Origin: Clostridia bacterium
GTDB lineage: Bacteria; Bacillota; Clostridia; Oscillospirales; CAG-272
NCBI GenBank assembly: GCA_017559555.1
Contig: JAFYRH010000230.1
Span: 1 to 6,064 of the forward strand
DNA length: 6,064 nt
Reading direction: 5' to 3'
Notes under the pieces: generated by a model
What the model was told of the DNA's origin: nothing
Databases searched by the model: none
What the model saw: only the letters and a program-made list of their open reading frames with translations
Position numbers and translations under genes: made by a program
In this document: piece by piece, positions 2,924 through 6,064 of the stretch
How positions within the stretch are numbered: position 1 is the first letter of the stretch
Layout of the letters: each line of letters begins with the position of its first letter

Positions 2924-2959
2924 CGGTTGATTTTTTATGCTCTAAAATTTGTCTGTTTT

Positions 2960-3107
2960 CGGGGCGTCGAGGACGTAGCGAAGCGGCGCGAGCGGAATGA
3001 ATGACAGTCCGGTGGACTGTCAGAACGTGAGCGTGACCGAACCGCAGTAGACCGCCCCCTGCAAAATTTAGATCTGCCTTGTAGGGGGCGACGTCCTCGA
3101 CGCCCCG
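2960..3107. repeat. 148-bp palindromic element with 17-bp terminal inverted repeats
   Basis: The ends CGGGGCGTCGAGGACGT (2960-2976) and its perfect reverse complement (3091-3107) bound the element. Inside are a 9-bp hairpin TGACAGTCC/GGACTGTCA (3002-3022) and a 12-base inverted repeat with one mismatch (3053-3064 against 3079-3090). The right end begins GTAGGGGGCG and ends CGCCCCG, like the GTAGGGGCG...CGCCCG unit at 2847-2871, so the two families share an edge. No believable coding frame crosses it. Confidence 0.75.
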
Positions 3108-3123
3108 CATAAAAGCAAAACAA

Positions 3124-3303: not shown

Positions 3304-4371
3304 TTAAAACTTACTCACAATCTCCTGCATTTTGGGAAGCAGGTTCTCGATGTCGCAAACGAGCTTGAGCTGGGTGCGTGCGCGGTCGAGGTTGTGGTTT
3401 TCGCGATGGATGTGATAATAAACGTCACCGTTGATGTGATCGGCAAGGAAGCGTGTCGCTTGCTCGAGAGTGATGATCAGAGCCGAATAAGGAAGAAGCT
3501 CACGTTCTCTATCTGTCATGCTGTCGCCAAGCTCCTCGAGGAAAGCGGCGGTGAATGCTTCGAACTTTTCGAGGTTGAATTGCACCTTGTCGAGGTCGAT
3601 TTCATCCTCGGCACCCGTCGAGGCACCTGTACGCATTGCATCGCCAAAATCGTAAAGGAGCGAGCCGGGCATAACGGTGTCAAGGTCGATAACGCAAATG
3701 CCCTTGTGGGTCTTGGCATCGAGGAGCACGTTGTTGAGCTTGGTATCGTTGTGCGTTACGCGAAGCGGAACCGTTCCTTCGGCAATGCCGTCAACAATTA
3801 AGGATGCATACTTTTGGAACTTGCGACAGAGCGCGATCTCGGTTTCAACCGATGCAACACGTCCTGCACGATCGGCAGCAATCGCTTCTTCAAGCTGTGC
3901 AAAACGGTTGGGTGTATCGTGGAATCTTTCAATGGTTTCGTGCAACTGATCTGCGGGAAAATCGGAAAGCATACGTTGAAAACGACCGAACGTGTGTGCG
4001 ACTTCGGCAAAATCTGCAGGACTCTTGGCAACCTCAAGGCAAACCGTATCCTCTACAAAATAGCAGGCACGCCAAAAGTCACCGTCCACGGTTTGGTAGT
4101 AAGGCAGACCCTCTTTGGTGGTCAAAAAGGTCATGGTTTCTCTTGCAGGGTCTCCACTGTTTTCGGCAATTTTTTCGCGCAGATATGCGGTAACTGCCAT
4201 AATGTTCTCCATAACCTCTGCAGGCTTTTTGAAAATGCTTGTGTTGATGCGTTGCAGAATAACACGCGGATTGCTCTCTACCAAAAAAGTGTTGTTGATG
4301 TGGCCGTTGCCGTGCGGAACTGCCGCAGCATCAATGCCAAATTGCTCAAGTACGTTTACGATTGGATTCAT
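3304..4371 (-). CDS. nahK: N-acetylhexosamine 1-kinase (NahK-like, APH fold)
   Basis: This is a 355-residue cytosolic sugar kinase of the aminoglycoside phosphotransferase fold, close in length and motifs to bifidobacterial NahK (LnpB), which phosphorylates GlcNAc and GalNAc at C1 with ATP. Visible motifs are GNGHINNTFLV (21-31, nucleotide-binding strand region), VILQRINTSIF (37-47), FHDTPNRF (150-157, characteristic of NahK relatives), the catalytic loop LRVTHNDTKLNNVLLD (203-218, base D209), and the metal-binding VIDLDTVMPGSLLYDFGD (227-244). A weak AAGGA at 4382-4386 lies 10 bases before the ATG. The gene diverges from an AraC regulator and nagB, which supports an amino-sugar role over antibiotic resistance. 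Homoserine kinase and methylthioribose kinase share the fold but lack the HDTPNRF and MPGS contexts. The product would feed the lacto-N-biose/galacto-N-biose or UDP-HexNAc route; no phosphorylase or uridylyltransferase is in view, so the exact substrate is open. Confidence 0.87.
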   Translation of the reverse strand: MNPIVNVLEQFGIDAAAVPHGNGHINNTFLVESNPRVILQRINTSIFKKPAEVMENIMAVTAYLREKIAENSGDPARETMTFLTTKEGLPYYQTVDGDFWRACYFVEDTVCLEVAKSPADFAEVAHTFGRFQRMLSDFPADQLHETIERFHDTPNRFAQLEEAIAADRAGRVASVETEIALCRKFQKYASLIVDGIAEGTVPLRVTHNDTKLNNVLLDAKTHKGICVIDLDTVMPGSLLYDFGDAMRTGASTGAEDEIDLDKVQFNLEKFEAFTAAFLEELGDSMTDRERELLPYSALIITLEQATRFLADHINGDVYYHIHRENHNLDRARTQLKLVCDIENLLPKMQEIVSKF

Positions 4372-4434
4372 TTCTCTTGCATCCTTTCACGCTGAATTTT
4401 TGTGTAAAAATGTATGAAAATGGAACAAAACCTA

Positions 4435-4463
4435 TTGACTTTGCCCCCGTGTTGTGCTATGAT
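4435..4463 (+). promoter_or_regulatory. Promoter of the araC-nagB unit
   Basis: TTGACT (4435-4440) and TATGAT (4458-4463) are separated by exactly 17 bases, a near-consensus sigma-A promoter. Transcription would start near 4470, within an AT-only 14-bp palindrome TATATTATAATATA (4464-4477) that may be part of an operator. Confidence 0.8.
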
Positions 4464-4484
4464 TATATTATAATATATCCAAAT

Positions 4485-5393
4485 ATGAATAGATATATGG
4501 AAATGGACATAAAACCTTTGAAAACAGCCAAAAACTCTCCCCAAAATAACGTAGTACCACTCAACGATTGCGGCATTGCACGCAGCGCTGATATTCTGGC
4601 GTTTCATTGCTCGCTTGACCGTCATTTTGATTGCGACCACAATTTTAGCGGTGAATGTCACCCCTTTTATGAGTTGGTCTTTGTTAAGGAAGGAACAGTG
4701 GGTATTACCGCCGGCGAAGAGGTACTTACCCTCTCGGGTGGACAAATTCTTTTGCACAGTCCCAATGAATTCCACCGCATTTGGTCGGAGTTTGGAAGTG
4801 CGCCGCACGTGTTCAATCTTTCATTTTTTGCCGCCGCAGTTCCCTCTTTCGGCTCTCGCGTGGTACAACTGAACGATGCAGAACAAACCGAACTGACCGC
4901 CATTTGCGCCGCTGCCGCTCAAGGCATTACTTCCGGCGACCGCGCTCTCCTCAACGAGGCACGTGTGCGACTTGAGTTGTGGTTTTTGCAGGTTGCAAAA
5001 AAGGAAAACGACATCCCCGAAGAAACTCCGATTTTGCCATCTGCCCTGCGCTACGCAGAAATCGTTGGCATTTTGCACGCCAATTTGCACAAGCAGCTCT
5101 CTGCCGGTGAAATTGCGCAACTGTGCAACATTAGCCTTTCGGCTCTCAAAAAAATCTTTACGCGCTACGCAGGAATGGGCGTGTCGAGATATTTTACCGA
5201 AATGAAAATGCGCTACGCCGCCGAACAGTTGCAGACGGGCATGCGCGTGGGCGAGGTTGCCGCACTGCTCGGCTACTTCGACCAAAATTACTTTAGTACC
5301 GTCTTTCGCCGTGTGATGGGCTCCCCTCCGGGAACCTTTCGCGGCAGTGAAAAAAAGTGTGATACACGAATAGAAAGAAAGGAAAATACCAAA
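4485..5393 (+). CDS. AraC-family transcriptional regulator, reading in frame into nagB
   Basis: A likely sugar-responsive activator or repressor of the nahK/nagB locus. Residues about 45-120 form a cupin-like sensor domain (FYELVFVKEGTVGITAG, then GGQILLHSPNEFHRI). Residues about 190-287 are the AraC DNA-binding domain with two helix-turn-helix units: LSAGEIAQLCNISLSALKKIF (205-225) and the signature VGEVAALLGYFDQNYFSTVFRR (255-276) followed by SPPGTFR. The promoter at 4435-4463 excludes the in-frame ATG at 4410. Starts at 4485, 4497 or 4503 remain possible, none with a good Shine-Dalgarno site; 4485 would leave a leader of about 15 bases. AraC proteins normally end a few residues after PGTFR, but here no stop occurs: codons run through a 16-residue charged linker into NagB. 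A -1 shift at the A AAA AAG heptamer (5351-5357) would stop at TGA 5360-5362, giving a normal 292-residue AraC. Confidence 0.9.
5351..5362 (+). other. dnaX-like slippery heptamer A AAA AAG followed by -1-frame GTG TGA
   Basis: In the AraC zero frame the codons are GAA AAA AAG TGT GAT. The heptamer A AAA AAG (5351-5357) is in the correct register for tandem -1 slippage, and the -1 frame reads GTG TGA immediately after. A one-base insertion in the A7 run (5350-5356) gives the same stop; a one-base deletion gives a stop at TAG 5371-5373. The downstream structure is weak (GTGT GAT ACAC, 5357-5367) and no strong internal Shine-Dalgarno site precedes the heptamer, so programmed use is unproven. Confidence 0.5.
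5376..5385 (+). promoter_or_regulatory. nagB ribosome binding site inside the linker
   Basis: AGAAAGGAAA, with core AGGA at 5380-5383, lies 10 bases before the ATG at 5394-5396. Its presence suggests NagB can be translated on its own, as in a normal two-gene operon, whatever happens at the upstream A7 run. Confidence 0.6.
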
Positions 5394-6064
5394 ATGAAAT
5401 TCATCACCGTTCAAAATTACGATCAAATGAGCCGCACGGCTGCCAATATCATCTCCGCTCAGGTTATCATGAAGCCCCAAAGCGTACTCGGTCTTGCAAC
5501 CGGTTCCTCTCCCGTTGGCATCTATCGCCAGCTCATCGAGTGGTACAACAAGGGCGACCTCGATTTTGCAAACGTAATTTCCGTAAACCTTGACGAATAC
5601 ATCGGTCTTGATGAAAACCACGACCAAAGCTACCGTTACTTTATGCAAAAGAACCTCTTTGACCACATCAACATTCGTCGCGAGAACACCTACGTTCCCA
5701 ACGGATGCGCCGAAGACCTTGCAAAAGAGGGTGCTGAATACGACGCTCGCATCGAATCTTTCGGCGGCATTGACCTTCAACTCCTCGGCATCGGTCTTGA
5801 CGGTCATATCGGCTTCAACGAACCCGCTCCCATCTTTGAAAAAGCAACCCACGTAGTGGATCTGCACGAGTCTACCATTCAAGCAAACTCTCGCTTCTTC
5901 GAAAAAGAAAGCGACGTTCCGCGCCAAGCAATCACCATGGGTATGGGCTCTATTATGCAAGCAAAGAAAGTTCTGCTCATTGCTAACGGCAAGGCAAAGA
6001 AAGATATCGTACAACGTGCTTTCTTCGGCCCCATCACTCCCGAGGTACCTGCTTCTATCCTGCA
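5394..6064 (+). CDS. nagB: Glucosamine-6-phosphate deaminase (3' end beyond window)
   Basis: NagB converts glucosamine-6-phosphate to fructose-6-phosphate and ammonia, the step that sends amino sugars into glycolysis. The 223 residues seen cover most of the usual 240-270. Motifs align with the E. coli enzyme: the phosphate-binding loop LGLATGSSPVGIY (32-44), VNLDEYIGL with catalytic D67, and GIGLDGHIGFNEP with D136, H138 and E143 matching Asp141, His143 and Glu148. ITMGMGSIMQAKKVLLIANGKAK (180-202) matches the conserved C-terminal half. SugarP-isomerase relatives such as 6-phosphogluconolactonase lack the DGHIGFNEP context. The ATG at 5394 matches the usual NagB N-terminus and has AGGA upstream. 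The frame is continuous with the AraC gene upstream, so the protein could be fused to it or made separately. Neighbouring nahK and the regulator point to control by amino-sugar supply. Confidence 0.95.
   Translation, partial: MKFITVQNYDQMSRTAANIISAQVIMKPQSVLGLATGSSPVGIYRQLIEWYNKGDLDFANVISVNLDEYIGLDENHDQSYRYFMQKNLFDHINIRRENTYVPNGCAEDLAKEGAEYDARIESFGGIDLQLLGIGLDGHIGFNEPAPIFEKATHVVDLHESTIQANSRFFEKESDVPRQAITMGMGSIMQAKKVLLIANGKAKKDIVQRAFFGPITPEVPASIL

Follow-up and report, generated by a model that had tools for sequence, protein, structure and literature searches.

An uninterrupted AraC-NagB reading frame shared by related genomes of Clostridia, with a conserved in-frame candidate start for free NagB

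The window, i.e. the whole stretch of 6,064 nucleotides that was analysed, corresponds to a complete contig (C303, 6064 b) of a MAG of 384 contigs that is 69% complete and likely represents a gut bacterium. On its forward strand, the reading frame opening at ATG 4485 ran without a stop codon through position 6062, where the contig ends, and Pfam recognised AraC_binding (residues 43-124), HTH_18 (residues 211-286) and Glucosamine_iso (residues 315-524) in its single translation, all above their cut-offs. The original prediction had read an AraC regulator and a NagB enzyme in one uninterrupted frame, and the absence of stops between 4485 and 6062 together with the finding of both kinds of domains in one translation bears this out. 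The AraC half comprised an AraC-type ligand-binding domain (PF02311, 4611..4856) followed by an AraC-type helix-turn-helix DNA-binding domain (PF12833, 5115..5342). In the whole translation, PF12833 scored 61.7 bits, PF00165 55.4 bits and PF02311 36.6 bits, each above its own cut-off. With an AraC-type HTH and an N-terminal AraC_binding domain, both over the cut-off, this half is assigned to the AraC/XylS proteins and is predicted to bind DNA. A linker of 16 codons (approximately 5346..5393), predicted to be flexible from the pLDDT below 50 at residues 313-327 of the homologue P0003, connects it to the NagB (glucosamine-6-phosphate deaminase) half (5394..6062), which begins with an ATG of its own (5394-5396). 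This truncated half scored 271.3 bits against the curated TIGR00502 cut-off of 236.9 and is thereby a predicted deaminase. NagB had been described as extending to the window end; the frame indeed stays open to the end, but NagB is cut off there by the contig end, and in the complete relative P0003 (92% identical) it extends 13 residues further. At the junction of the halves, a run of A7G followed by TGA in the -1 frame (5350..5362, TGA at 5360-5362) forms a frameshift-like motif, which was not conserved.

The fusion probably starts neither at ATG 4485, as had been proposed, nor at the ATGs 4497 and 4503, none of which was shared among the loci compared. A TTG codon at 4518..4520 (forward strand), common to all 21 araC-nagB loci (12 fused and nine unfused), is the likely start, giving an AraC-NagB fusion ORF at 4518..6062, open to the contig end. 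In the fused loci, the anti-SD energy of this TTG start ranged from -3.0 to -7.2, and in all 12 the pairing was weaker here than at the NagB start, the two being nearly equal in L011. Upstream, a consensus scan located a sigma-70-like promoter on the forward strand (TTGACT-17-TATGAT, the second hexamer being preceded by TG; 4435..4463). The same scan of the stretch returned five sites where 1.1 were expected, and the fused relatives in the alignment have similar boxes at the corresponding position. Between the -10 box and the start, the alignment revealed a conserved element on the forward strand (4475..4496) with the core TATCCAAA then AATAGATAT. It was conserved in the eight fused loci of clade 1 and in the unfused L021/L022, and more weakly in L010-L013 and L023; it might represent a candidate autoregulatory operator or a leader element.

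On the opposite strand lies a divergent N-acetylhexosamine 1-kinase (NahK)-like gene (3304..4371), with PDB entries 4ocu (4.7e-94) and 4wh1 (1.4e-93) as matches. A divergent NahK-like homologue was detected in 15 of the 21 sequences (10 of 12 fused, five of nine unfused), and two of the six sequences without the kinase (L048 and L051) are contigs some 4 kb long. Beyond the kinase, ten proteins encoded near eight of the loci, a small part of the ORFs around them, were examined for an amino-sugar function: six had Pfam matches, none of that kind, and four had no match. The divergent arrangement suggests that the AraC half may control both the kinase gene and the fused gene.

We then considered how widely the fusion is spread. 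A stop-free fusion was present in 12 of the 35 genomes of the genus, that of the window included, and the other eleven were 63-94% identical to it. In nine genomes, araC and nagB adjoined each other but were separated by a stop, and in 14 no adjacent pair was seen. Ten of these 14 possessed a nagB above the TIGR00502 cut-off and four did not have any; nine of the ten nagB loci (all but that of G026) were inspected, together with up to 1.5 kb of flanking sequence. In the protein search, at least 64 fusion clusters (P0002-P0065), 59-92% identical, occurred among the best 120 of 5635 matches. Several of them hold tens to more than 100 member sequences, and P0006 is without part of the N-terminus. 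The best 120 of 2523 rows of a profile-based protein search contained one further fusion (P0122, 954 aa) and no AraC-NagB fusion outside the family of these fusions. In a sample of 395 genomes of the taxonomic family (cut-off 1e-60), all uninterrupted AraC-NagB proteins among the matches listed fell within this genus. A pair of araC and nagB homologues from a different genus stands side by side at G125:C9:27720-29231, 34% identical and with stops inside the match.

The uninterrupted AraC-NagB frame is thus real and no assembly error. The regulator-enzyme fusion which had been proposed from a single sequence recurs in 12 genomes and in at least 64 protein clusters among the matches listed, and the stop between the halves that was to be sought in relatives was absent from the two closest ones (94% and 90% identical) and from nine more fused genomes. 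The ordinary alternative offered at the outset, two genes with a lost stop, probably describes the history correctly, a single ancestral event being most likely; as a sequencing error, it is rejected because of those 12 genomes and at least 64 listed clusters.

As for the origin of the fusion, the tree of the 21 AraC halves placed the 12 fused ones on one side of a branch with an SH-aLRT of 100 (a quick tree with no bootstrap). In the NagB tree, the 12 fused sequences shared a starred branch (97) with two adjacent unfused ones, and the fused label there needs two changes, not one. Since nine other genomes keep the genes adjacent yet separate, the gene pair was most likely fused once, in an ancestor. 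One cluster, P0069, is AraC-only, 67% identical to the query, and ends soon after the AraC part, which hints at a secondary split of the fusion or at an error. Clade 1 comprises eight of the 12 fused loci, and in a second fused branch the AraC halves share just 51-54% identity with that of the window. Pairwise omega for nine clade-1 pairs was 0.05-0.16 for araC (estimable in eight of nine) and 0.03-0.08 for nagB (nine of nine), the ratios being rough because dS approaches or exceeds 1 in many cases. By these values both halves are under purifying selection, and neither looks decayed.

The NagB half has the features expected of an enzyme. Residues D72, D141, H143 and E148 of E. coli NagB, which we take to be catalytic, aligned with D395, D464, H466 and E471 of the fusion P0003; among 32 aligned fusions, D464 and E471 were invariant and D395 and H466 were conserved in at least 90%. 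Two of these 32 (P0026 and P0063) departed from the conserved catalytic motifs, with DGC in place of DGH and LHEY in place of LDEY; activity may thus be lost in a few NagB halves. The E. coli residues S151, S152, R158, K160 and T161, presumably those of the allosteric site for GlcNAc6P, are P, I, H, V and D in P0003, whose alignment stops at E. coli position 241 of 266, before the region of the C-terminal helix. The best three sequence matches of the NagB half were 2bkv and the S. mutans NagBs 2ri1 and 2ri0. The fold search ranked 2bkv first and 2ri0 fifth by E-value, with hexameric NagBs also close. We take 2bkv to be the B. subtilis NagB (its title contains 'monomeric'). With about 235 residues, no C-terminal helix and 2bkv/2ri0 as the nearest structures, the NagB half is nearest the monomeric, non-allosteric class, and its oligomeric state is a prediction made on this basis. 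Allostery of the hexameric E. coli type was rejected, all five site residues being replaced and the C-terminal helix absent. Gram-positive NagB is described as monomeric, without allostery and without the C-terminal helix in PMC9812318. The original prediction had held that NagB is allosteric and could pass a signal to the DNA-binding part. That view does not fit a sequence that is nearest to monomeric enzymes, has the five allosteric positions replaced and ends before the helix region. An allosteric signalling route via NagB is therefore unlikely, and a signal, if there is one, would have to arise from the binding of substrate. A monomeric NagB would also suit a dimer of the AraC type, as it avoids a clash between dimer and hexamer.

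An AlphaFold2 model of P0003, built with 32 fusions, had a mean pLDDT of 77.5 and a pTM of 0.47. Residues 1-62 and the linker (313-327) were below a pLDDT of 50, and the relative placement of the AraC and NagB halves was left unpredicted by the model. ToxT structures matched the AraC half, with a poor superposition of the whole chain (TM by target about 0.35-0.37).

We also examined whether the old start of nagB is retained within the fused frame. A Shine-Dalgarno-like stretch, AGAAAGGA (5376..5383, forward strand), precedes the NagB ATG with an anti-SD pairing of -5.6 kcal/mol. The ribosome binding site which the original prediction had placed before this ATG had its counterpart in all 12 fused DNA sequences: the anti-SD energy ranged from -5.3 to -8.4, the ATG was present in each, and the purine stretch was there in every locus with a differing codon phase. 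The free nagB starts of the nine unfused relatives gave comparable values of -4.6 to -8.4 (in L015, L016, L017 and L025 the start was placed by alignment, and the real one is probably one codon upstream). By comparison, 181 other in-frame ATGs of open frames had a mean of -1.8, with 22 of them at -5 or below. Another in-frame ATG equalled the NagB start in seven of the 12 loci and none did in five; at other codon positions of the same frames, an equal SD strength was reached in 4-26%. The NagB start region was less structured than 89-98% of ORF windows. At the protein level, Met occupied the NagB start in 64 of 64 fusion proteins among the matches listed, while residues -5/-4 varied across the fusions (KE, KD, RE, KG, GR, EE, EK, NR, DR and others). 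Still, K, E, R or G stood at -5 in 59 and at -4 in 61 of the 64 listed fusions, and purine-only codons suffice for these residues. None of the 12 fused genomes, whose completeness is 69-87%, had a nagB above the TIGR00502 cut-off other than the fused gene, and several of them held weaker nagB relatives below it.

Tests for selection on the nucleotides themselves gave a mixed picture. Among the clade-1 loci, the best of the windows that overlap the SD ranked 5, 4, 2, 1, 4 and 3 for synonymous conservation at six window sizes (302-452 windows). When all 12 fused loci were aligned, the top synonymous windows did not include the SD. Between the two closest loci, the 48-nt junction was unchanged, as were 16 of 497 overlapping windows, the junction included. 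Synonymous recoding often reached the observed SD strength (per-locus p of 0.015-0.61, below 0.05 in two of 12 loci). The nucleotide-level test is weak, since recoding under fixed amino acids often yields an equal SD, and support for the internal start therefore rests partly on the residues themselves. Given the conserved in-frame SD and start codon, with the nucleotide-level test weak when taken alone, we consider it quite probable that the internal NagB start is used.

The explanation which we favour, and hold to be somewhat better than an even bet, is that one continuous gene gives two products, a TTG-started AraC-NagB fusion and a free NagB initiated internally. With its weaker anti-SD pairing, the TTG start would yield a small amount of the fusion, while the old nagB start, kept in frame, would yield free NagB in a larger amount. 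The AraC half would bind the divergent region (4372-4517) and control the kinase gene as well as its own gene. Given its likeness to the monomeric class, the NagB half could be carried as a folded active domain, tethered by the flexible linker to each subunit of an AraC dimer. Such a tether would couple the level or state of the regulator to the flux of amino-sugar phosphates, and the tethered NagB may report the substrate level. We can speculate further that AraC activity at the promoter shared by NahK and AraC-NagB depends on whether substrate occupies the tethered NagB (open or closed lid), with free NagB competing for that substrate. A single gene would then encode a flux sensor together with its own competitor, although this more specific proposal seems unlikely.

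The fusion might also be neutral, the stop having been lost by drift and the fusion tolerated, with regulation the same as in the unfused relatives. This appears possible but on balance doubtful, and it would be compatible with the two-product explanation. The same gene order occurs in the nine unfused relatives, five of which also have the divergent kinase, so the pathway can do without the fusion; the possible re-split represented by P0069 points the same way. On the other hand, the fusion has persisted in a clade that includes the divergent second branch, and no stop was found in the 64 listed clusters.

Production of the fusion protein alone, as a strictly bifunctional transcription factor-enzyme, seems rather unlikely. 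The SD-like stretch would then be a relic, or a by-product of a linker rich in lysine and glutamate. The linkers are indeed K/E/R/N-rich and predicted to be disordered in the model, K/E codons alone produce purine runs, and the SD strength often survives synonymous recoding, as described above. Against this stand the invariance of the start Met in the 64 listed fusions, the persistence of SD strength despite residue changes, the position of the SD/ATG windows among the slowest synonymous sites of clade 1, and the consequence that the sole full-scoring nagB found would depend on a TTG start with a weaker SD.

Programmed -1 frameshifting at A_AAA_AAG, known from dnaX, could in principle give three products: mostly the fusion, with some ribosomes stopping at the -1 TGA (5360-5362) and freeing AraC. 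The heptamer is in the right register and the TGA begins five bases after the start of the AAG codon, yet the in-register A6G occurred in only five of the 12 fused loci and the AAA/AAG choice at both codons was conserved no more than expected, which makes frameshifting very improbable and led us to reject a dnaX-type frameshift as a conserved feature. That a misread or misassembled homopolymer run made two ordinary genes look like one, as the seven A at the junction and the fragmented, 69% complete source MAG might suggest, is ruled out for practical purposes by the eleven further fused MAGs, by the absence of the in-register A run from seven of the 12 loci and by at least 64 listed fused clusters, several with tens to more than 100 members.

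Returning to the explanation with two products, its closest counterparts are the unfused araC-nagB neighbours of the same genus (e.g. L014, L021 and L024), which have the same gene order, the same TTG start of araC and a related NagB; in L021-L023 the promoter region is homologous to that of the fused loci as well. In these unfused neighbours a stop codon lies between the genes, which hence encode separate proteins, whereas the fused loci encode a single protein. The monomeric NagBs of B. subtilis (2bkv) and S. mutans (2ri0) are 46-47% identical over the modelled NagB half, with TM-scores by target length of 0.94 and 0.89, respectively, and the helix region is absent from them too. Both are free enzymes without a DNA-binding part, while here NagB is joined to AraC. 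Regulators of the DeoR/SorC type join a DNA-binding domain to a sugar-phosphate-binding sensor of NagB-like fold. The fusion differs from them in that its NagB is a full-scoring member of the enzyme family, its HTH is of the AraC type and it has an additional AraC_binding domain. NadR, PutA, BirA and Ada are bifunctional regulator-enzymes with DNA-binding and catalytic parts in one polypeptide; they belong to other families, and what sets AraC-NagB apart is that the free enzyme likely has a start of its own inside the gene. Regulator-enzyme fusions and internal starts are thus already known kinds. In the open-access literature, outside which most subscription papers lie, we found no published AraC-NagB or AraC-enzyme fusion. 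N-terminal proteoforms arising from internal starts are the topic of PMC11005335. Genes of this kind make two proteins from one frame, as AraC-NagB would; the internal start of AraC-NagB, unlike theirs, seems to have belonged to a gene that formerly stood alone.

Within one genus, the two genes are found apart, adjacent, and fused with the old start kept, a series for the joining of a regulator and an enzyme. It may illustrate how the two become one protein, likely without loss of the free enzyme. If the tethered NagB senses GlcN6P for the regulator, the locus would represent a minimal metabolic-flux sensor in one gene. The three fusion clusters with source-given names are called only 'glucosamine-6-phosphate deaminase', a warning for annotation, as such a name hides the regulator and the likely second product.

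Other architectures involving NagB appeared among the matches listed. PRD was joined to NagB in P0091 and P0096, each represented by one cluster, and P0080, also one cluster, had a sensor-like N-terminus on NagB; P0072 is a NagB-containing protein with an internal duplication. Elsewhere in the window, 2107-2760 encodes an HTH_3 regulator (PF01381) whose C-terminal part is unrecognised by Pfam. Imperfect inverted repeats at 2948-3119 and 1693-1973 (arms 81% and 79% complementary, respectively) contain no recognised gene and are possibly dispersed repeat elements. A SAM riboswitch (RF00162, 67.4 bits) lies upstream of metK on the reverse strand (1487-1573). Finally, positions 1-152 of the window repeat part of metK (407-558) in inverted orientation with 90% complementarity, likely an assembly fold-back or a chimeric contig end.
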